IMG/VR virus record: IMGVR_UViG_3300032892_000011
Coordinates: 1-20,358 of that record
Origin: a virus
Strand: one strand, 5' to 3'
Length of the DNA stretch: 20,358 nucleotides
A program made the position numbers and the translations under genes. Below, piece by piece: positions 4,395 through 18,185 of the stretch (the first letter of the stretch is position 1; every line of letters begins with the position of its first letter). The notes beneath the pieces are model-generated. The model saw only the letters and a program-made list of their open reading frames with translations. It was not told the DNA's origin and did not search any database.

Positions 4395-5575
4395 CTTGTT
4401 GTTACTCGCCGCTCAGAACAGAGTGGCGGGGGCGGTCGTTTCCGCCGCCCTCTGCGCGTCTCCGCGCAGGTCGGACTCTACCTTGGTCTGGTGATGACGC
4501 TTCTTGCCAGCGCTGATCTTCGCGCGATGCTCAGCAGTGAACGGGCCGAGTTTCGCGCCGACCCTAGCCTTTGCCGAGCACTGTCTGCTGCAGTACACGT
4601 GCTCGCCCGTCCGGTGCTTCGGCTGGGCAAGGAACGTGCCGCCGCACGTCTCGCAGGTGAACTCCCGCTTGCCGCCCTTCCAGAGCGGGTGGAGTTCGCC
4701 TGAGAACTTAGTGCGGATGTCGTAGACCGGTTCCCTGTCGGGAACCAGTCCGCAGGCGCTGGTCACGCGCTCGATGCACGCCACGGCATCGGTGTTGATC
4801 TCGCTGCCGGTGAACCGGAAGACCCGGTAGCCGGCCTCGGCGAGAGCAGTGTCGCGGAGTGCATCTTTGGCTTTCTGCTGCGGCAGGGAGTGGACTTGCC
4901 CGTCTGCCTCGATGACGACCGGAGCTTGGTTGATCTCGATATCCACCAAGTAGGTTCCCAGCAGTATGGACTGCGTGCGGAACCCGATCCGGGCTGTTTT
5001 CAGGGCGTCGTGCAGGCGGCGTTCGATGGCTGTGTTGATGGCGGGACTTTCCCGCACCTTGGCCAGCCGGGCGAGTGTTGCCGTCCGCGCCTTGGCCGCG
5101 AACTCCGGCGTCCTGGTGGCGAGCCGGTGCGCTTCACGCCGCTCCGGAGACCACTCATTGCCTGTCATGTTGCCGCGAGGGCGAATGACTACGCCAGCGT
5201 CCAGGATTACCTGCTTGATCTTGGGCTTGCCACGCTGATATTCGGCCATGAGGACTTCCAGTCCTTCTCCGGCTTCGTACCGTCGTGCGATTTCCTGTCG
5301 CTCAGCAGGGATCAGAGGCTTCTGACCTTTAATCCTTGCCACGTTAAGATTGTACTATCACCAGATCCCGCGTGCCGAGTCTCTGAACCTTGACCCTGGG
5401 CGTGTCGCCTTTAGGCCCTCGGCTGCTGATTACCCCTGCCGCTCGCTTCTCGGACCGTCGCGCTCGCCCTTTCGGGCCACGCTGTGGTGCGAGCGGGTGA
5501 CGCGGGCTTCCCAGCAATTCTCGCGGTTTTCACTCACGGGTCACCCCGCGAGGCCCCTACCTGCTAATTCATGCA
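4395..5575 (-). ncRNA. Group I intron 2 in the capsid gene (1181 nt)
   Basis: On the minus strand the 5' splice follows CCCT (last exon base 5576) and the intron ends in G at 4395, giving a phase-0 join VP/YRFF. Visible core parts are: TAGGGG shortly inside, which can pair with CCCT as P1; P2 arms CTCGCGG and CCGCGAG (5546-5552 with 5520-5526); AATTGCTGGGAAGCCC (5504-5519), resembling the Q/P4 element, whose GCTG can pair with CAGC in AATCAGCAGCC; and GGTTCAGAGACTCGGCACG (5371-5389), a close match to the classical R/P7 element. GGTGATAGTAC, just before the endonuclease start, is a candidate S element. The 3' end GCGGCGAGTAACAA is shared with intron 1. A self-splicing ribozyme with a homing endonuclease in a peripheral loop is the natural reading. 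The exact boundaries are inferred from frame and ribozyme rules. Confidence 0.82.
4413..5342 (-). CDS. Intron-encoded homing endonuclease, Vsr-like (EDxHD / DUF559 type), in intron 2
   Basis: This 309-residue protein has an N-terminal helical DNA-reading part (AERQEIARRYEAGEGLEVLMAE). A PD-(D/E)xK-like nuclease core spans about 105-185, with E107, D134 (LVDIEI), E145 and D147 in VVIEADGQVH, H151 and a later D160 or D164 (KDALRDTALAEAGYRVFRF). This is the EDxHD layout known from I-Bth0305I-like homing enzymes. A zinc-binding knuckle follows: C230, C233, C251, C255 around HPLWKGGKREFTC. A short basic nuclease-associated modular motif lies at 268-281 (FTAEHRAKISAGKK). The GTG start at 5342 is weak and lies just inside the ribozyme core; the stop is 15 bases before the intron end. 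It should cut the intronless capsid allele. It is clearly paralogous to the enzyme of intron 1. Confidence 0.87.
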   Translation of the reverse strand: MARIKGQKPLIPAERQEIARRYEAGEGLEVLMAEYQRGKPKIKQVILDAGVVIRPRGNMTGNEWSPERREAHRLATRTPEFAAKARTATLARLAKVRESPAINTAIERRLHDALKTARIGFRTQSILLGTYLVDIEINQAPVVIEADGQVHSLPQQKAKDALRDTALAEAGYRVFRFTGSEINTDAVACIERVTSACGLVPDREPVYDIRTKFSGELHPLWKGGKREFTCETCGGTFLAQPKHRTGEHVYCSRQCSAKARVGAKLGPFTAEHRAKISAGKKRHHQTKVESDLRGDAQRAAETTAPATLF

Positions 5576-5792: not shown

Positions 5793-6866
5793 CGCTATTT
5801 GTTACTCGCCGCCGTAGCGGCGGGTCAGGTCATTTCTGCCTGACTCTGCACGTCCTCGCGCGGTTCGTGCAGGCCGGACTGTATCACCATCTGGCGTCCG
5901 CGATTCGCTATGCCATCCTTACGGGGACCGCGATTCGCGACTGACGTTCTCGTTCGCCGCTGCCACTCTGTCTGGCACTCGCGACTGCATGTGCGGCAGG
6001 GCTTGCCGTAGCCTCTCGGCCACGACCGGAACTTGCCCCCGCAAACCTCGCAGGTCCATTCCGGCTTGCCGCCCTTCCAGCGCGGGTTAGCCTCGGCCAT
6101 CAGCCCGTTGCGGATGTCGAAGACCGGCTCCGCATCGCGGACGAGCCCGGCCTTCTCGATCACTTGCCGGATGCAGCCGTCTGCGTCCTTGCAGATGTCG
6201 CCGCCGTGGAAACGGAATACCTCATATCCCGCAGCCTGCATGTCCTTGTCGCGTTGCGCGTCGCGCTCGCGGGACTTGGCGTGCAAGTGCATGTTGCCGT
6301 CCGCCTCGATGACGACCGGCTTCTGGGTGACAAGGATGTCCGCAACGTAGCGGCCGAGTAGCGGTTGTTGCGTGGAGAACGAGATGCCCTCCTTGCGGAG
6401 AGCGCGGTGGAGAAAACTCTCGAGAGGTGAGCCGCCGTGCCGGGGTGCTTGCATCCCCGGTAGCCGCTCCAGCCACTTCTTGCGCTGCTCCTCGCGCCAC
6501 TCTGGGTCGTCCCAGTGCTTGCGTGAGGCTTCGCGCCACGCCTCGGATTTCTTCTGTCCTTTGACGTGCCCACGAGCCTTGAGCGGGATGCCCTGCCGGA
6601 CCAGTTCTTCGCGGACGGTGGTGTTCCGTACGCCGTAGAACCGGGCCAGCCTATTCAGGTTCCCGATCCGCTCGTAGTCCTCTCGGAGGTGACTCCAATC
6701 GCCAGATGCCCTGCGTGCAGTCTCTACGGAGTCCCCAGGCTGCGGGGTTCCCTCGGTATTGCCCTCATCCATACGGAAAATTATAACCTATCCCGTATTC
6801 GCGAAGGGTGTTCACCGATACAGCAGGGTCTTTACCTGCGGATCACTCCGCAGGGCCCCCTAGTTG
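5793..6866 (-). ncRNA. Group I intron 1 in the capsid gene (1074 nt)
   Basis: The 5' splice follows CCCT (last exon base 6867) and the intron ends ATAGCG, with the final G at 5793. This boundary is chosen because it restores frame, leaves U before the cut and G at the end. Close inside are TAGGGGG (P1 partner of CCCT) and a perfect P2 hairpin with arms CCTGCGGA and TCCGCAGG and a GTGA loop (6835-6854). Near the 3' end CCGCCG-CTA-CGGCGG forms a P9-like stem, followed by GGCGAGTAACAA, also found at the end of intron 2. A clear R element is not visible before the endonuclease; GGTGATACAGTCCGG at 5874-5888 resembles an S element and lies inside the endonuclease coding sequence. Group I identity rests partly on homology to intron 2. 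Confidence 0.72.
5825..6772 (-). CDS. Intron-encoded homing endonuclease, Vsr-like (EDxHD / DUF559 type), in intron 1
   Basis: This 315-residue protein begins with a helix-turn-helix-like region (DYERIGNLNRLARFYGVRNT, residues 32-51). The nuclease core at about 115-195 carries E118 (LESFLHRAL), D145 (YVADILV), E156 and D158 in VVIEADGNMH, H162, and D171 or D175 (RERDAQRDKDMQAAGYEVFRF), as expected for the EDxHD homing family related to the mismatch nickase Vsr. A zinc knuckle follows with C241, C244, C259, C262 and C266 after NPRWKGGKPEWT. The ATG at 6772 lacks a good ribosome binding site, as is usual for intron-borne nucleases whose expression is kept low. Its last codons overlap what may be part of the ribozyme core. 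It shares order and motifs with the intron 2 enzyme but is diverged, so the two did not arise by a recent copy. Confidence 0.87.
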   Translation of the reverse strand: MDEGNTEGTPQPGDSVETARRASGDWSHLREDYERIGNLNRLARFYGVRNTTVREELVRQGIPLKARGHVKGQKKSEAWREASRKHWDDPEWREEQRKKWLERLPGMQAPRHGGSPLESFLHRALRKEGISFSTQQPLLGRYVADILVTQKPVVIEADGNMHLHAKSRERDAQRDKDMQAAGYEVFRFHGGDICKDADGCIRQVIEKAGLVRDAEPVFDIRNGLMAEANPRWKGGKPEWTCEVCGGKFRSWPRGYGKPCRTCSRECQTEWQRRTRTSVANRGPRKDGIANRGRQMVIQSGLHEPREDVQSQAEMT

Positions 6867-11315: not shown

Positions 11316-11347
11316 CGTATCAATGCATTGTATCGATACGCTATGAT
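11316..11347. promoter_or_regulatory. Overlapping palindromes with divergent candidate promoters
   Basis: Outer arms CGTATC (11316-11321) and GATACG (11335-11340) enclose two perfect 10-bp palindromes that share a base: CAATGCATTG (11321-11330) and GTATCGATAC (11330-11339). A near-consensus plus-strand -10, TATGAT, lies at 11342-11347 and would start transcription a few bases before the first pentamer array. On the minus strand TACAAT (complement of 11327-11332) could serve the 105-residue gene. The palindromes would cover both promoters, so a dimeric repressor here could set the switch between cassette and head genes. No clear -35 boxes were found. Confidence 0.5.
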
Positions 11348-11357
11348 GAACGACACG

Positions 11358-11447
11358 AAGCAAAGCCGAGTGCAGCTTAGCGTCGCAAAGTTCAGCAGAG
11401 CCGGGCGAAGCAATGTCCAGTCCAGCCACGCAAAGCTCAGCACAGAT
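11358..11447 (+). repeat. Degenerate NAGYN pentamer array, leader copy (18 units)
   Basis: Eighteen consecutive 5-base units run without a phase break. G is at position 3 in all 18, A at position 2 in 14, and C or T at position 4 in 17; positions 1 and 5 vary freely. Examples are AAGCA, GAGTG, CAGCT, TAGCG. It fills almost all of the predicted 5' leader and stops shortly before the ribosome binding site (GGGAAAGGAAAG) of the 206-residue gene. Confidence 0.9.
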
Positions 11448-11467
11448 ACCCAGGGAAAGGAAAGCCC

Positions 11468-12088
11468 GTGGCGGTGACCACGAACGTCTACAAGCTCCAC
11501 CTGATCCTTACTGGTACGAGTCCCCTGGTGGTCAACAACATCAGGGGCGCCGATCCCGACGAGCCCCTCGTTCGGGAGATCAAGAAGATCACCGACAAGA
11601 AGGGCAACATGACCGAGGAGGATCGTCAGCGTCTTGAGTGGCTGAAGTGGATGGTCAGCCTCTACGACGATCCGAAGGGATTCAGCGGCGACCTGCACTT
11701 CCCGGCGGCGGCCATCATGAAGTCGTTCACGCGAGCCGCCTCGCAGTTCCGCGATGGCACCAAGCTTGCCCGCGCCGTTCAGCCCGCACAAGCGATGGTC
11801 GTCATCCAGCACAGCGGCCCCAAGGATCTCGGCCAACTTTACGACGATGACAGGTTCCGGCTGCGGAACATGGTCAACACGAACCCAACGGGTAAGAAGA
11901 CGATGGTGCCGACCGTGCGCCCGATCTTCCCGGAGTGGGGCATGGAACTGGATGCGGTGCTGTTCAACGACATCCTGGGTGAAGCTGACTTCAGCCGCTA
12001 CGCGGACCTTGCTGGAGTCGGCGAGGGCGTCGGGAATGCCCGGCCACTCGGATACGGACGGTTCGGCATTCAGATCCAGAAGCTGTAG
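11468..12088 (+). CDS. RAMP-like (Cas7-fold-like) phage protein, function unknown
   Basis: This 206-residue protein is encoded against the head operon. Its N-terminus reads YKLHLILTGTSPLVVNN (8-24). LHFPAAAIMKSFTRAASQF (77-95) recalls the beta strand plus helix written LPGSSLKGALR in RAMP-type proteins. The end, GVGEGVGNARPLGYGRFGI (183-201), recalls their glycine-rich loop. The middle (MVPTVRPIFPEWGMELDAVL) is typical of a family of uncharacterised phage proteins. No nuclease catalytic set is evident. The GTG start at 11468 follows GGGAAAGGAAAG. RAMP folds bind RNA with regular spacing, and the gene is flanked by 5-nt phased repeats, so nucleic-acid binding is a reasonable guess. Similarity to RAMPs is judged by eye only. 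The stop codon TAG is the first unit of the next array. Confidence 0.72.
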   Translation: MAVTTNVYKLHLILTGTSPLVVNNIRGADPDEPLVREIKKITDKKGNMTEEDRQRLEWLKWMVSLYDDPKGFSGDLHFPAAAIMKSFTRAASQFRDGTKLARAVQPAQAMVVIQHSGPKDLGQLYDDDRFRLRNMVNTNPTGKKTMVPTVRPIFPEWGMELDAVLFNDILGEADFSRYADLAGVGEGVGNARPLGYGRFGIQIQKL

Positions 12089-12234
12089 CGGAGCGGAGCA
12101 TAGCGAAGCGGAGCTAAGTTCAGCGAGCATAGCTCAGTTCAGCCCAGCAGAGCGTAGCGCAGCACGGTCTAGCGCAGTTCAGCATGGCGTAGTTAGCAGA
12201 GCCCAGTAAAGCCAAGCACAGCACAGACCAGCCG
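12086..12234 (+). repeat. Degenerate NAGYN pentamer array, spacer copy (30 units)
   Basis: The array starts with the TAG stop of the 206-residue gene. Eight units in NAGYN register (12086-12125) are followed, after a one-base slip, by thirteen units in AGYNN register (12126-12190), a four-base unit (AGTT, 12191-12194) and eight more (12195-12234). It ends next to GAGAAGGG, the ribosome binding site of the next gene. The repeat thus fills the whole spacer between the two genes. Confidence 0.9.
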
Positions 12235-12251
12235 ATAGAGAAGGGCATCCC

Positions 12252-12758
12252 ATGTCGCCATTCGCCCCGAAGGGTGACCGCTCCCTACGGGTAATCGTCG
12301 CAGAGATGGTCGCAGAGCGATCCCCGGGCGATCTACTCACCTACGAGGATCTCGGGAAGTCGCTTGACCTTGACCCGGATGAGAGGCGTGACCAGATCCG
12401 GCAGGCTGTCTCTGCCGCCCGCCCTATCGTCCTCACTGACCAGAAGCGGGCACTGATCCCGGTACGCGGCCAGGGATACCGGGTCGCCTGGGCGTCCGAG
12501 TTTGCCGGTATCGCCCAGGAGCACCGCCGCAAGGCCGACCGTCAGATCGGCAAGGCGCTCGACATCGTTAAGAACGTGAACGAGAAGGAGCTATCGCCCG
12601 AGGAGCTGAAGCGTCACCGAGCTGTTGCCATGGTCATCACGAACCTGCACACGAGGATGACCAGCGCCGAATCAAGGCTTCAGCAGCTTGAAGAGGCTGT
12701 TTTCGGTTCGCCCCGCCCGGTCATCCAGGGCGAGGTGGAGCGCGATGAACTTACATAG
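12252..12758 (+). CDS. Probable winged-helix DNA-binding protein with C-terminal helical part
   Basis: This 168-residue protein follows the RAMP-like gene. Residues 10-80 look like a winged helix: helix SLRVIVAEMVAER, then LLTYEDLGKSL as helix 2, RRDQIRQAVSAARPIVL as recognition helix, and a wing RALIPVRGQGYRVA. The C-terminal part is helical and charged (EHRRKADRQIGKALDIVKNV, then a heptad-like MTSAESRLQQLEEAVF), suggesting dimerisation. The ATG at 12252 follows GAGAAGGG with good spacing. It may regulate the cassette by binding the palindromes at 11316-11340, or act with the RAMP-like protein; both are inference. Its TAG stop opens the third array. Confidence 0.75.
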   Translation: MSPFAPKGDRSLRVIVAEMVAERSPGDLLTYEDLGKSLDLDPDERRDQIRQAVSAARPIVLTDQKRALIPVRGQGYRVAWASEFAGIAQEHRRKADRQIGKALDIVKNVNEKELSPEELKRHRAVAMVITNLHTRMTSAESRLQQLEEAVFGSPRPVIQGEVERDELT

Positions 12759-12850
12759 CCCAGCTAAGCACGGATTAGCGAAGTCCAGCGTAGTGAAGCA
12801 CAGAGTAGCGAAGTTCAGTTGAGTTCAGCCCAGCACAGCGAAGCAGAGTC
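12756..12850 (+). repeat. Degenerate NAGYN pentamer array, tail copy (19 units)
   Basis: Nineteen units without a phase break run from the TAG stop of the winged-helix gene into the stop codon of the convergent portal gene (12849-12851). G is at position 3 in all 19, A at position 2 in 18, and C or T at position 4 in 17. Exceptions are CGGAT and CAGAG. The array forms the start of the 3' untranslated region of the cassette message. Confidence 0.9.
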
Positions 12851-15800
12851 ACCTATTACCCGGGTCCGCGCCTTGATGAATCTGAGAGGAGTGCGTCTCA
12901 TCCCACGGGCCGTCTTCGCCGGGGACGAACCCAACATAGGTCAGGAACGGCTTGCCTGCCTGCTGCGAGCCCAGCGCCCGGTGATGGCCGTCGACAACGT
13001 TGATCTTGGGCCGGCCGGGCTTCTGCACCGACACGCCCGGAGAGACGTCCTCGCCGCGCCTGATCCGGCCGGCGAAGTGACGGACCCGGCTGCGCTCGTG
13101 ATGCGCCGCCCACTTTTCCTCGTCCTCGTAGTCGATCCTGTCGTGCGGGATGGCGACAGGACCGATCCAGTGGATGCGCGGATCTTTCACCCAGCCGATG
13201 GCCTTGGGCGGAAAGTTCCCGAGTAGCTGGCTGTACACGTGGAAGGCTTCCACCGGGTTCGGGTCACCCGGATCTGCTGCGCCCTTGCGGGCACCGGGCA
13301 GGTCGTGAACGATGTCGCTGTCAGCCTCCGGGCTCCACTCTTCGACCGCCGAGGACGGGTCGAATGCCTCAGGCTCGACGGAGTGCGGCTTGTACGGCTT
13401 CGGGGCCTGCGCCGGGACGGACCCGACTACCGGGTGACCGGAGTCGTTCTTCCTCGCCCCGGACGGCGGGACGCCCGTATTAGCGCCGACAGGGGAGGCC
13501 ACGGGGGTGAGTGTCACCTGAGGCTCAGGCCACGCCTCGTCATGCTCCGTGCCCTGGTCCGGGAACGCGTCCGCCGGGGGGGCCGGCTTGCGTCCGCGCG
13601 AGGGCATTTTCCCGTCCTGGCCGCCGCGGGGTGTCAGGGTGTCGTGCGGCTCAGGCTCGGCCATGTCGTTGATGTGGTTCGGGGGCTCAGCGCCTGCGCT
13701 GCCGAGTTCAGACGGGACTGCCCCTGGTCCGGCGTCAGGCCAATGCTCCGGGTCTTCCGTGCCGTCGCTGCGCCGCGGATAGGGCCAGCGCGCCCCGACA
13801 GCCTGGAGGGCTTGCGAGGCCGGGGTGAGGGTGAGGACTTCCCCGTTCTCGTTCACCATCCGCTGCAGGGCCTTGGTGGCATGCTCCCGGAGGGTGATGC
13901 CGTGTTCCCAGTCGTCGCGGAACTTCGGCGCGAGGTTGAGGTCCTTGATTTCCTTGCGGCGGAACCATGCCACGCCCTGCGTCTCCTGGGGCGTGGACCC
14001 GTTCAGCAGCGGCGTGAAGTACGGCACGTCGCACAGCCACAGGAACACCTGCGTCTTGCCGTCGTCCTCGACGTGGTGGAACGTCCCGGCGATCCTCAGC
14101 CCCGCGGGCAGGTCCCCGATCTCCTCGGTGACCTCGCGGAGCGCAGCACCCCACGGGTCCTCGCCCATGTGGGGTTTGCCTCCTGGCATCCCCCACGTGC
14201 CGTCGTCGCGCTGCTGGAGGAGGAACCGGTATTTGCCGTCGTCGTCGCGGGCGCGCAGCAGCAGCCAGACCAGGCGGGAGTCGTCATCGGCGGCGGCGGA
14301 CTTGCCGAGGTCGGCGAGCGGTGGTTCGGTGTTGACGCTGCTGGGAGCAGGGCAGCAGCGGCAGCGGATATGACACTGGCCGATCACGCCGCCCGCGGAG
14401 AACGGGGCGTCCAGCGGGATGTCTCCGTCGTCGGCGGCGTCCTTGCACAGATCGCAGGCATTCGGTGACAGCAGCAGGTGCTTGTGGGTGACGCCGTTGT
14501 CGCGGTAGCACTGGATCGCGGCAGTGTTGATGGCCCGGCCGACTTCGGTCCACGCGATCATCTCCGAGCGCACGGCATTGTTCCCCAGTCCAGTCCTGGA
14601 GATCTCGCTGAGCCAGTGTGCTTCCTCCGAGCCGATGAACCCCTGCAGGGCATCCCCCTCGGCCTTGGCCGTGAAATCCGCGGGCTGCCCGGTGACGAGG
14701 GACTTGGCTGCGGCGTAGCCCAGGTTCCACGCTTCGGTCCACAGGGGCTTCAGGACGCCGGAGAAGACGTCACGTACCTCGTCGCTGATCAGGTCCCGCA
14801 GGGTGGAGTTGGAGACGAACATGCCCCCGGTGGCGGCCTTCTTGCGGAGTTCGGAGCCTCTAGTCTCGGCGTCGTGGAAAGCCTGCCCGATGAGGTTCTT
14901 GTAGGCGCCGACGAGACCGAGGTCGCGCTCCCAGCCTGGCCAGTGAGCAGCCTTGGTGACCTCCGGGTGCCCTGAGGGCGCGCTGTAACCGCTTTCCCGC
15001 GCGCTTTCCGCGTCACCGGCCCATTCGTAGGCATCCTTGGTCAGGCAGATATCCCCGGCGCGCTCCACGGCCGTGTCAATCAGCACGCCCTTGGCGATGT
15101 CCTCGGCGATCATCCCCAGGGCGCGTCCGGGGATGTGCTCGGCTTCCCACGTGGAGATCAGCCGGCCCTTCCGCAAGTGCCTGCGGAGCGCGTCCAGTTC
15201 GCACTGGACGGCCTTGAGCCGGTCGGTGTGCCCCTCGCCCCGCTTCCGGCTCCCCGCGACGGGAGAACGGCTCGTGGTGCCCCCGGTGCGCGGCCCGGGT
15301 CCTTGCACGGCCCCGGAAGCAGCCGAATGCGCGGGAGTGACGGACTCCCGGTGCGGCGCGACAGGCTTCGGATGGCTGCCGTTCGGGCGCGTCTGGCCGC
15401 CCTGTCGGACACTCGGCTGGCTCGTGCGGGACCTGGAAGACGTGGTGCGCTGACCGCTGTTCGTCCCCTGCGCCCCGCCCTGCGCGCCCGCCTGCATGTT
15501 CGCGATCAGCTGCGGGGCCATCGAGAGCGGGATCGGCCCCTGCGCCGTGAACACCACCGGCTCCGACGTCTCCTGCAATCCCCACGGAGGAAGGTCAAGC
15601 CGCTCCCGCACCTCGTCAATCGAGGAGATGGCGTTCTGCACCTGCTCCACGCCCAGGGAGGTGATCGCCTGCTTGTCCTCGTCGTCCTGCAGCCCCTCGA
15701 ACGAGAAGCACATATCCTGCTGCCCGCAGATGTCCTGCAGGATGTAGTCCATGATGCTGGCCAGGGTCAGCAGCAGCGGCTTGGTGGATTTCCGGGACTT

Positions 15801-18185
15801 CATGTCCCGGGAGGCCTGCGCGCCGAACTTGATCCCCGACGCGGACGGCCCCGACGTGCTGGCGCCGATGTCCGGGATGATCCCGAGTTCGGTGGGCAGG
15901 ACGTCCAGTTGCATGAGGACCTGGTTCATCACCAGGTAGTCGAACGAATCCGAAAGATCTACCGGACGCTGCGGGTCAACTTTGCTGCCGGGCGGAAGAA
16001 CGATCACTTTAAGGTGATAAGCAGGGTCTCCCGCAATGCCGTTCAACGCATCCTGGAGTTCCTTGACCTGCGTCGGGGTGATATTCGGGTCCCCGGGTGA
16101 GATGTAGACGGCGGGGACGGTGTTCCCGCACCATGCGGCCTTGCCGTTCCTGCGGACGTAGACGATGCCGTTCGGGACGGTCACGCAATGGACGGTCCCG
16201 TGGTACTCGACCCGCTTGGGTTTCGGCAGCCAGTGATAGTCCTGCATCCGCTCGCGGACCACGTACTGGATGCGGCCACTCCGGCGGATAGGGCGACCGT
16301 TGCCAGCGTCCCCGGCGTCATACTGGCTCAGGTCTTGAGGGCGAATCCAGGCGTCTCGTCCGAGCTTCTGGAAGACCTCCTGGATGTCATCAGCGAGCCG
16401 CTCGCTGGTGGTGGTGTAGTACCGCTGGCCCAGTGGCCCCCAGTGGCCGTCGCCGAGCATCGCCGCAGACAGAAGCGCCTCAAGCAGGCGCGGCGAGTAG
16501 TCCTTCACGTCGGCGGGGATCGCCTTGTTCCATGCCCGGTGACCGATGTTGTCGCGCAGCCATGCCGCGAGCGCCTTATTCGTCACCTCGAAACGGTTAT
16601 GAGAAGCGCGGTATGTCCAGTGGAGTCCCGTCTCCGCGAGGATGTCGCTGACCGCGCGGAAGTGCCGGGACGTGGGCGCCTGGGCGACGTAGATGTCGTT
16701 GCGGTCTTGCCGCGTCCATCCTTCAGCGAGATAGATGCCGAGGAAGGCACAGAAAGCGCGGGCTTCCATGACGACATCGCGGGCTGGATGGCGGGGCGAT
16801 GCGATGCCCGGGATGCGGACAATCCCGGGTTCCGCTCCGCGCCACGTCGATGTGACCGGGTAAAGCCAGCGCGTCTCAGGCGCGCGGGCGATGTGCTCGG
16901 CCAGCCGGATGTGCCAGCCGTCTTCTCCGTCGCGCGGCTGATGCTTGGCCAGGTAGGCGTGTGGACGGGATACCAGCATCCGATGGCCGGGCGTCACCAG
17001 CAGTTCCACCGACTTGCTGGTGAACTCCACCATCTCCCCGGCGAACGGGTACTCCAGCCGCGCAGACGGGATCTGCCACTCGAACTCGCCCTTTTCGCCC
17101 CGGGTGGCCACCTCATCGGCATCGGAAAGCTCAGTAAAGAGCTTCCAGCCATTCCGGGTAAGGATCTCAGTGTCGCTTGAGTAGCATCCTTCGGTAAAAT
17201 AGTCAAGTTGAAATTCTTGCTTCTGGAGACCAGAGATTATGGGGAGAAGTGCCTGCTCAATGGGCGGGAAGCCGTAAGGCGATTCGCGGCGCGGTACCAG
17301 CGGAAGGTACAGCATCACGTCGGCGCGGAACTCGTTGACCTGGGCACCCGTCAACCCGTAGTCGTCGATGTCTGAGCCGGAGATGACGGTCTGGTAATCG
17401 CTTCGGGGTACCCCGTAGAGGTATTGCTGATAAGCGGGGGCGGGTGGCCTCGGCTTTCCGCCGTGCATATTGAGAAGTGGACGAATTGTTGGCCCGCTCA
17501 CAAGGCTAATACTATCAAGATCCGAGCCCAAAAGCCCGAGGCCGAGTCCTTTCCCGTACTTGGGCCGGAAGATCAACGACAAGGCATCGAAAACGAAGAT
17601 CTCCTCGAGGAGCGCCTTGAGGAACGACGACCAGTCGAAGTAATCCGGGTCCGGGTGGCGGAAGAACCTCGTCGCCTTGGCGGCGCGTTCCCCGAAGTCC
17701 CTCATCGCCTTGTGGTCGCCTTGGTAGGCCTTGGCGGCCTTGGTGGTGAGCTCGATGGACCATTCGAGGCCGGCGATTTCCTCTTTGCGGAGCTCGATGG
17801 CGCGGCGGGCCACGTTGTACTTGGAGGCGATGGTCTGGAGCTGGGAGAAGCTGGCGAGCTTGAAGCCTTCGCTGCCGGGCTGGGTGGGGAGGTTGTAGCC
17901 GACTGGGTATTGCCAGAGGCGGGGGTCGGCGAATCCGCCGGGGATGGCGGGCTGGTCGACGGGGACTGGCTGGATCGGACTCATGGGGCCGAACGCGCCG
18001 TCGGTGAAAGTGCGGGACGGCCTGGGCAGGAAGGGCCCGTAGCTCGACTGGTACGGGTTGCCGTACATGGCGTTCGCGGCGACCTGGTTCATGCCGCCCC
18101 ACCCGCCCGACTGGGGTGCGGGGGTGTAGCGGGCGCCGCCGGGGACGGCTTTCATCGCGGCGAGGACACCGGAGGTGCGTGACAT
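12849..18185 (-). CDS. Portal protein with intein, fused to MuF-like, Nudix and ParB-like domains
   Basis: This 1778-residue frame encodes, in order: portal part 1 (1-333, with VARRAIELRKEEIAGLEWSI near 125-144); an intein (334-688); portal part 2 (689-about 895, TVPAVYISPGDPNITPTQV to IDEVRERLDLPPWG); a low-complexity Ser/Gly/Pro linker; a MuF-like region (about 1085-1280) ending with CDLC and HIRCRCC; a complete Nudix box at 1336-1358 (G1336, E1342, REVTEEIG 1350-1357) in a domain of about 1303-1440; a long Pro-rich linker; and a ParB-like domain at about 1655-1755 with NVVDGHHRALGSQQAGKPF. Without the intein it is 1423 residues. The portal forms the DNA entry ring at one vertex; the Nudix domain would hydrolyse a nucleoside diphosphate derivative. 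The ATG at 18185 follows GAGGAACGG. No frameshift is seen, so the fusion appears real. Confidence 0.88.
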   Translation of the reverse strand: MSRTSGVLAAMKAVPGGARYTPAPQSGGWGGMNQVAANAMYGNPYQSSYGPFLPRPSRTFTDGAFGPMSPIQPVPVDQPAIPGGFADPRLWQYPVGYNLPTQPGSEGFKLASFSQLQTIASKYNVARRAIELRKEEIAGLEWSIELTTKAAKAYQGDHKAMRDFGERAAKATRFFRHPDPDYFDWSSFLKALLEEIFVFDALSLIFRPKYGKGLGLGLLGSDLDSISLVSGPTIRPLLNMHGGKPRPPAPAYQQYLYGVPRSDYQTVISGSDIDDYGLTGAQVNEFRADVMLYLPLVPRRESPYGFPPIEQALLPIISGLQKQEFQLDYFTEGCYSSDTEILTRNGWKLFTELSDADEVATRGEKGEFEWQIPSARLEYPFAGEMVEFTSKSVELLVTPGHRMLVSRPHAYLAKHQPRDGEDGWHIRLAEHIARAPETRWLYPVTSTWRGAEPGIVRIPGIASPRHPARDVVMEARAFCAFLGIYLAEGWTRQDRNDIYVAQAPTSRHFRAVSDILAETGLHWTYRASHNRFEVTNKALAAWLRDNIGHRAWNKAIPADVKDYSPRLLEALLSAAMLGDGHWGPLGQRYYTTTSERLADDIQEVFQKLGRDAWIRPQDLSQYDAGDAGNGRPIRRSGRIQYVVRERMQDYHWLPKPKRVEYHGTVHCVTVPNGIVYVRRNGKAAWCGNTVPAVYISPGDPNITPTQVKELQDALNGIAGDPAYHLKVIVLPPGSKVDPQRPVDLSDSFDYLVMNQVLMQLDVLPTELGIIPDIGASTSGPSASGIKFGAQASRDMKSRKSTKPLLLTLASIMDYILQDICGQQDMCFSFEGLQDDEDKQAITSLGVEQVQNAISSIDEVRERLDLPPWGLQETSEPVVFTAQGPIPLSMAPQLIANMQAGAQGGAQGTNSGQRTTSSRSRTSQPSVRQGGQTRPNGSHPKPVAPHRESVTPAHSAASGAVQGPGPRTGGTTSRSPVAGSRKRGEGHTDRLKAVQCELDALRRHLRKGRLISTWEAEHIPGRALGMIAEDIAKGVLIDTAVERAGDICLTKDAYEWAGDAESARESGYSAPSGHPEVTKAAHWPGWERDLGLVGAYKNLIGQAFHDAETRGSELRKKAATGGMFVSNSTLRDLISDEVRDVFSGVLKPLWTEAWNLGYAAAKSLVTGQPADFTAKAEGDALQGFIGSEEAHWLSEISRTGLGNNAVRSEMIAWTEVGRAINTAAIQCYRDNGVTHKHLLLSPNACDLCKDAADDGDIPLDAPFSAGGVIGQCHIRCRCCPAPSSVNTEPPLADLGKSAAADDDSRLVWLLLRARDDDGKYRFLLQQRDDGTWGMPGGKPHMGEDPWGAALREVTEEIGDLPAGLRIAGTFHHVEDDGKTQVFLWLCDVPYFTPLLNGSTPQETQGVAWFRRKEIKDLNLAPKFRDDWEHGITLREHATKALQRMVNENGEVLTLTPASQALQAVGARWPYPRRSDGTEDPEHWPDAGPGAVPSELGSAGAEPPNHINDMAEPEPHDTLTPRGGQDGKMPSRGRKPAPPADAFPDQGTEHDEAWPEPQVTLTPVASPVGANTGVPPSGARKNDSGHPVVGSVPAQAPKPYKPHSVEPEAFDPSSAVEEWSPEADSDIVHDLPGARKGAADPGDPNPVEAFHVYSQLLGNFPPKAIGWVKDPRIHWIGPVAIPHDRIDYEDEEKWAAHHERSRVRHFAGRIRRGEDVSPGVSVQKPGRPKINVVDGHHRALGSQQAGKPFLTYVGFVPGEDGPWDETHSSQIHQGADPGNR
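16122..17186 (-). mobile_element. Intein with LAGLIDADG homing motifs in the portal
   Basis: This 355-residue intein runs from C334 (CYSSDTEILTRNGWK) to N688 (VYVRRNGKAAWCGN), followed by Thr689. Block B is TPGHRML (398-404) with the expected Thr and His. Two LAGLIDADG-type helices are visible: FLGIYLAEGW (481-490) and LLSAAMLGDGHW (571-582), so it is probably an active or recently active homing intein. The residue before the terminal Asn is Gly instead of the usual His, as in several phage inteins. The insertion splits the conserved portal segment DYFTEG/TVPAVYI. Confidence 0.92.

Follow-up and report, generated by a model that had tools for sequence, protein, structure and literature searches.

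A very probable AGY-core VIPR cassette in a tailed phage, with a tail guide matching the portal-fusion gene of sister phages

The DNA analysed here (the window) is a whole IMG/VR record of 20,358 bases, with 66% G+C. It is a segment of structural genes from a tailed phage, the majority of its genes being encoded on the minus strand. Two genes oriented opposite to these surrounding genes, together with three arrays of 5-nt units that flank and separate them, are very probably best explained as a VIPR cassette with AGY cores, the tail vrRNA of which is directed against the portal-fusion gene of sister phages. Support for this reading comes from protein homology, fold, array statistics, target matches with a one-base skip in codon register, and the asymmetry between the phage's own allele and those of other phages. 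By analogy with the published systems, the locus would be expressed and would work as they do, with one protein subunit per unit.

VIPR (Viral Interference Programmable Repeat) was presented in a preprint of April 2026 as a system in which a RAMP-like protein (Vipr) is accompanied by a vap gene and by vrRNAs built from pentamers with GGY/NN ‘or a related consensus’; the RNA-protein complex binds double-stranded DNA by a noncontiguous code, in which one base is skipped per unit, and represses the target (PMC13142463). The vrRNAs reported there have 9-16 units and an invariant 3′ tail (PMC13142463). A named design, the vrRNA array, therefore exists for what the sequence-only reading had regarded as an element without a name (PMC13142463).

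The features of the cassette and of the neighbouring gene are as follows.

11317-11347, plus strand: candidate operator/promoter, proposed from conservation, with GTATCAATGC, the palindrome GTATCGATAC (11330-11339) and then a -10-like TATGAT (11342-11347)
11359-11448, plus strand: leader vrRNA-type array, 18 AGY-NN units
11468-12088, plus strand: vipr, 206 aa, predicted RAMP fold (phrog_4652, E 1.7e-24)
12087-12234, plus strand: spacer vrRNA-type array, between vipr and vap1, about 30 units
12252-12758, plus strand: vap1 homologue, predicted DNA-binding accessory protein, 168 aa (phrog_5926, E 3.3e-12)
12757-12851, plus strand: tail vrRNA-type array, 19 units
12849-18185, minus strand: portal-MuF-NUDIX fusion gene adjoining the cassette (NUDIX, E 4.9e-12), which resembles the ‘portal and MuF-like fusion protein’ of Arthrobacter phage Sonali
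13104-13136, minus strand: portal-fusion site to which sister phage L167 has a matching tail guide (20/22, skip 1)
13317-13376, minus strand: the window's own allele of the tail-guide target (FDPSSAVEEWSP), mismatched to its own guide
13377-13418, minus strand: portal-fusion site to which sister phage L093 has a matching tail guide (26/28, skip 1, on codon position 3)

The product of the first gene is, as judged from its sequence and predicted structure, a RAMP-fold Vipr protein related to Cas7/Csm3. A profile built from 34 relatives, the window included, has as its sole sequence match in the PDB the entry 36pp_D, ‘SUSP1 Vipr protein’ (E 2.8e-47), which the window protein also matches as a single sequence (E 3.8e-6). 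The AlphaFold2 model (pLDDT 91.6) is matched by Foldseek to Cas7/Csm3-type CRISPR RAMPs of type III and VII complexes, with E values down to 1.8e-7; no Pfam family reaches a meaningful score with the protein or its 33 relatives. A single-sequence search for vipr among viral contigs gave no match, relatives there being recovered only with an alignment. The second gene starts 163 nt after vipr and is homologous to the SUSP1 gene that adjoins vipr (ALH47068; phmmer E 3.7e-6 in a small set, profile E 1e-43); 26 vipr-adjoining homologues were found in all, the window included, and that of phage MakoManhole is annotated as a DNA binding protein, Pfam giving weak and meaningless matches only. The phrog families of both genes are listed there as of unknown function. 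Vipr homology, the RAMP fold and the vap1 homologue therefore argue that the cassette is a VIPR with vap1.

Every gap of the two-gene cassette, i.e. before, between and after the genes, is filled by AG-core 5-nt units, as the sequence-only reading had it, and its array coordinates and its counts of 18, 30 and 19 units hold on recount. The core contains AG in 14/18 leader and 18/19 tail units, and G in all of them (18/18 and 19/19 by counting, i.e. the 37 of 37 claimed earlier). The spacer and tail arrays start on TAG stop codons (12086-12088 and 12756-12758, respectively), again as described, and the tail runs, with its last units, into the stop codon of the convergent portal-fusion gene. The NN letters are AA CG GC TT GT AA TC AG CG GA AA CC CC CA AA TC AC TA in the leader and CC TA AC TT GA CC GT GA AC GT GA TC TG TC CC AC GA AG CA in the tail. 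Inspection bore out the absence of identical copies; no constant 3′ tail shared among the three arrays was evident on comparison, and no Rfam family was found in the window.

The best 5-nt phase holds AG in 14/18 leader, 11/13 mid-spacer and 18/18 tail units, whereas 5000 controls with the leader's own dinucleotides reach at most 10, and own-dinucleotide controls of the mid-spacer and tail at most 9 and 12, respectively; controls of the same lengths with window-wide dinucleotides do not exceed 6. The period thus lies far outside the range of the shuffled-type controls against which the earlier reading had proposed to set it. The rest of the window shows a much weaker AG phase (at most 0.33 on the minus strand, versus 0.94 in the tail). 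The earlier impression of a near-unbroken phase does not extend to the spacer, which by phase falls into blocks of 8 units from 12087, 14 from 12126 and 8 from 12195; since the two 1-nt slips at 12126 and 12195 break the phase, the whole spacer in a single phase is not significant (12/31, own-dinucleotide control maximum 16). In homologous cassettes, a comparison named beforehand, the phase is kept down to about 20-30% protein identity, with differing NN letters. Selection on period and core is, therefore, the part of the earlier interpretation that stands; the part that denied selection on sequence does not, the variable NN letters carrying information.

The association of arrays with the protein extends well beyond the window. 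Viral contigs were scanned for eight consecutive AGYNN units, yielding at least 119 stretches, many of those listed being loci of 39-69% G+C that have degenerate arrays in more than one adjacent gap, beside relatives of the first gene. With a vipr HMM built from the window gene and five annotated phage homologues, a vipr gene was found, among the matches listed, at 22/31 pattern loci with diverse NN letters versus 3/74 with repetitive ones. Because the pattern search is blind to the protein, array and protein are genuinely linked. In L039 (seven pattern matches), L066, L098 and L102, the retrieved sequence holds diverse AGY arrays but no Vipr gene. In L019 (1555-2321), L109 (2070-2801) and L062, AGY arrays of about 9-13 units alternate with near-constant, hairpin-containing separators some 57 nt long (GGCTACAAAGTAGC...GTACCAC), at least six copies in a row, which are probably vrRNA tails. 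Further separators are of a 12-nt TTACATCCAAAC type and of an AGCAGGC type (L043 3614-4111, L037, L057; L117 5434-5883). In L022 and L089 the period-5 signal is dominated by, or shared with, GT instead of AG/GC, possibly a further core consensus.

What the NN letters encode was read by the published rule, NNxNNx..., with one target base skipped per unit (PMC13142463). The target DNA, 2.3 Mb from related phages, was collected via relatives of the portal gene and then as whole or near-whole records, so that the portal gene makes up an estimated tenth of it. In this set the window tail guide matches 21/22 letters, i.e. not perfectly, at L156:5392-5424 and does so with a skip of 1 only, other skips or shuffled guides giving at most 18/22. 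In translation the L156 site, which belongs to the 3′ part of the portal-fusion gene, reads FDPAETVESWS, and the skipped base falls on codon position 3; other sister phages match the guide at the homologous place. The portal-fusion gene has relatives in 40 related contigs, and matches also run the other way: by their sequence matches, the tail guides of L093 and L167 likely have the window's own copy as their target.

The same pattern recurs across the clade. When 33 guides were compared, in windows of 11 NN, with 2.28 Mb of related phage DNA, 8, 6 and 3 of them reached at least 20, 21 and 22 of 22, respectively, with a skip of 1, none doing so with skips of 0, 2 or 3; among shuffled guides one at most attained 20/22. 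All six guides at 21/22 or better are the last array of their cassette, and all six match the sense strand of the cassette-adjoining gene in related phages, the skipped base falling on codon position 3. As guide and mRNA share the same sense, pairing must be with DNA.

That the target gene is the immediate neighbour could also mean that the tail vrRNA serves to regulate the convergent portal gene of its own phage and not that of competitors, and own alleles are indeed partly matched (window 20/40 at the homologous site, L093 22/28, L175 24/28, the last as good as the match to others). Such self-regulation is nevertheless unlikely, in that guides of mRNA sense cannot pair with the mRNA and the own allele is the worse match for five of the six: the full window guide scores 26-27/40 in sister phages at the site where its own allele gives 20/40, its best own match anywhere is 16/24 versus 21/24 in others, and the L171 guide scores 20/28 on its own and 27/28 on other alleles.

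Other matches have a different standing. Two skip-1 matches at 20/22 place the skip on codon position 1 (L175 spacer, L172 leader) and are unsupported; skip-3 matches were rejected as targets, being related arrays instead. Leader targets were not found in 49 whole related records with up to three mismatches, and neither leader nor spacer targets were found with sliding windows in the 2.3 Mb of related DNA or in the full set of viral contigs with exact patterns of 8 or 9 NN, four 8-NN leader matches being set aside as chance because they do not extend past the searched stretch. A guide of L057 matches 19/20, with skip 1, near the 3′ end of vipr in related phages (L037:6444-6473, L043:3503-3532), and by this match it may be directed against rival VIPR systems.

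TRAP reads AG-containing triplets every 5 nt. A TRAP-like attenuation, with a ring protein encoded elsewhere that would bind (G/U)AG triplets spaced by two bases and regulate translation or termination, shares with the arrays the 5-nt geometry and the AG core. It is very improbable as an explanation, given that the linked protein is a RAMP-type Vipr and no TRAP is found in the cassette, that the first core base is in many units C or A, that an array also follows the last gene, and that the NN letters decode to specific targets, which is foreign to TRAP, a protein of other fold and function. Thus, the earlier proposal of a cassette-encoded protein that oligomerizes on RNA with AG every five bases survives as the best explanation, with the RAMP-fold Vipr in place of the ring. 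Sites at half-turn spacing for a nucleoid or partition protein, suggested by the closeness of a 5-nt period to half a helical turn, are hardly credible for arrays that lie on the coding strand of the cassette, adjoin vipr and carry skip-1 targets in codon register.

Comparison with Class 1 CRISPR-Cas effectors reveals a common theme, i.e. a RAMP fold (Cas7/Csm3) lining up on a guide RNA. CRISPR-Cas proper was considered and rejected for this locus: identical repeats with unique spacers are absent, the cassette has one small RAMP gene and no other cas-like gene, and the guide is noncontiguous. With the vap1-containing VIPR of the type found in Escherichia phage SUSP1, on the other hand, the window shares the Vipr RAMP homologue, the vap1 homologue, intergenic pentamer arrays with hypervariable NN letters, the 1-nt skip rule, skips at wobble positions and targets in competing mobile elements. 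It differs in its AGY core, compared with the GGY (‘or a related consensus’) of the systems characterized in the paper, and in its arrays of 18, 8+14+8 and 19 units without an evident constant tail, compared with the 9-16 units reported (PMC13142463). A third array between vipr and vap1 also sets the window apart from SUSP1, as the direction of tail guides against the sister allele of the flanking gene sets its clade apart from the published SUSP1-type VIPR. AGY cores and this clade may already be covered in the supplement of the VIPR paper; targeting of the neighbouring gene and the loop residue described below, which tracks the core, may be new details.

In the VIPR reading, a promoter immediately before the leader would drive transcription of the three arrays, giving the vrRNAs. 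Along the RNA, every 5-nt unit would be occupied by one Vipr subunit, which would grip the AGY core and leave the two free bases exposed; these would pair with double-stranded DNA read as NNxNNx..., with one base skipped per unit. The vap1 protein would assist, and the bound complexes would block transcription of the target. Directed at the portal-fusion gene of sister phages, the tail vrRNA would thus most likely shut down a structural gene that close competitors sharing the cell cannot do without, while the phage's own copy, having diverged, would escape.

In sister phages without the cassette the next gene follows closely after the portal stop; points 2,320 bp apart in the window are separated by 779 bp in L127, so that the cassette is an insertion of about 1.5 kb. 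The GTATCGATAC-type palindrome and the -10-like box are the probable promoter and operator, as suggested by GTATC/GATAC motifs that precede the leader arrays of the relatives compared by no more than about 60 nt; a consensus scan gave no sigma-70 site. The whole cassette had no blastn match among phage and plasmid records, and neither Vipr nor portal found a host match in GTDB species genomes. The portal-MuF fusion protein carries its NUDIX domain in the C-terminal part (12849-14201, minus strand), and its reading frame contains an insert of about 355 codons (16123-17187, minus strand), absent from L093 at an exact junction (blast breaks at 16122/17188 versus 865/864 in L093), which starts near CYSSDTEILTRNGW, ends near AAWCGN and, from these sequence features, is a predicted intein. 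Two DUF559/MTES_1575 (endonuclease-like) genes also lie within the structural block (4413-5342 and 5825-6772, minus strand).

A feature of Vipr that may relate to the core is its glycine-rich loop, G187-V-G189-N190-A-R-P-L-G-Y-G197-R-F, in which the columns of GVGNARPLGYGRF are invariant in the alignment. Among 101 Vipr proteins with a clear core, 62 GG and 39 AG (13 labels being set manually, in cases in which the third core base, C or T, scored higher than the first), the residue after GxG, N190 in the window, is D or E in 62/62 GG proteins and N, G, A, T or S in 39/39 AG proteins; furthermore, H occupies window position 23 in 62/62 versus 2/39. The core label changes three times on the tree, with the loop residue following on supported branches, and a total of 2-3 independent changes leaves the link statistically unproven. 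It is put forward tentatively, at somewhat less than even confidence, that the last vrRNA is regularly directed against the sister-phage allele of the flanking gene, making the cassette a local allele-exclusion weapon, and that this one loop residue (D/E or N/G/A/T/S) decides whether GGY or AGY is read.

VIPR, described only recently, is an RNA-guided system that can be programmed and is considered akin to the ancestor of the CRISPR RAMPs; the locus described here supports its skip-1 code independently, through sequence evidence only, and in a clade whose core motif differs. The window offers a natural rivalry between sister phages that can be decoded, and likely target sites are present in the window as well. 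Two testable ideas are provided in addition, namely that last guides are directed against the copies of the flanking gene in rival phages and that one position of the glycine loop sets core specificity; if true, the latter would matter for orthogonal Vipr/vrRNA pairs.
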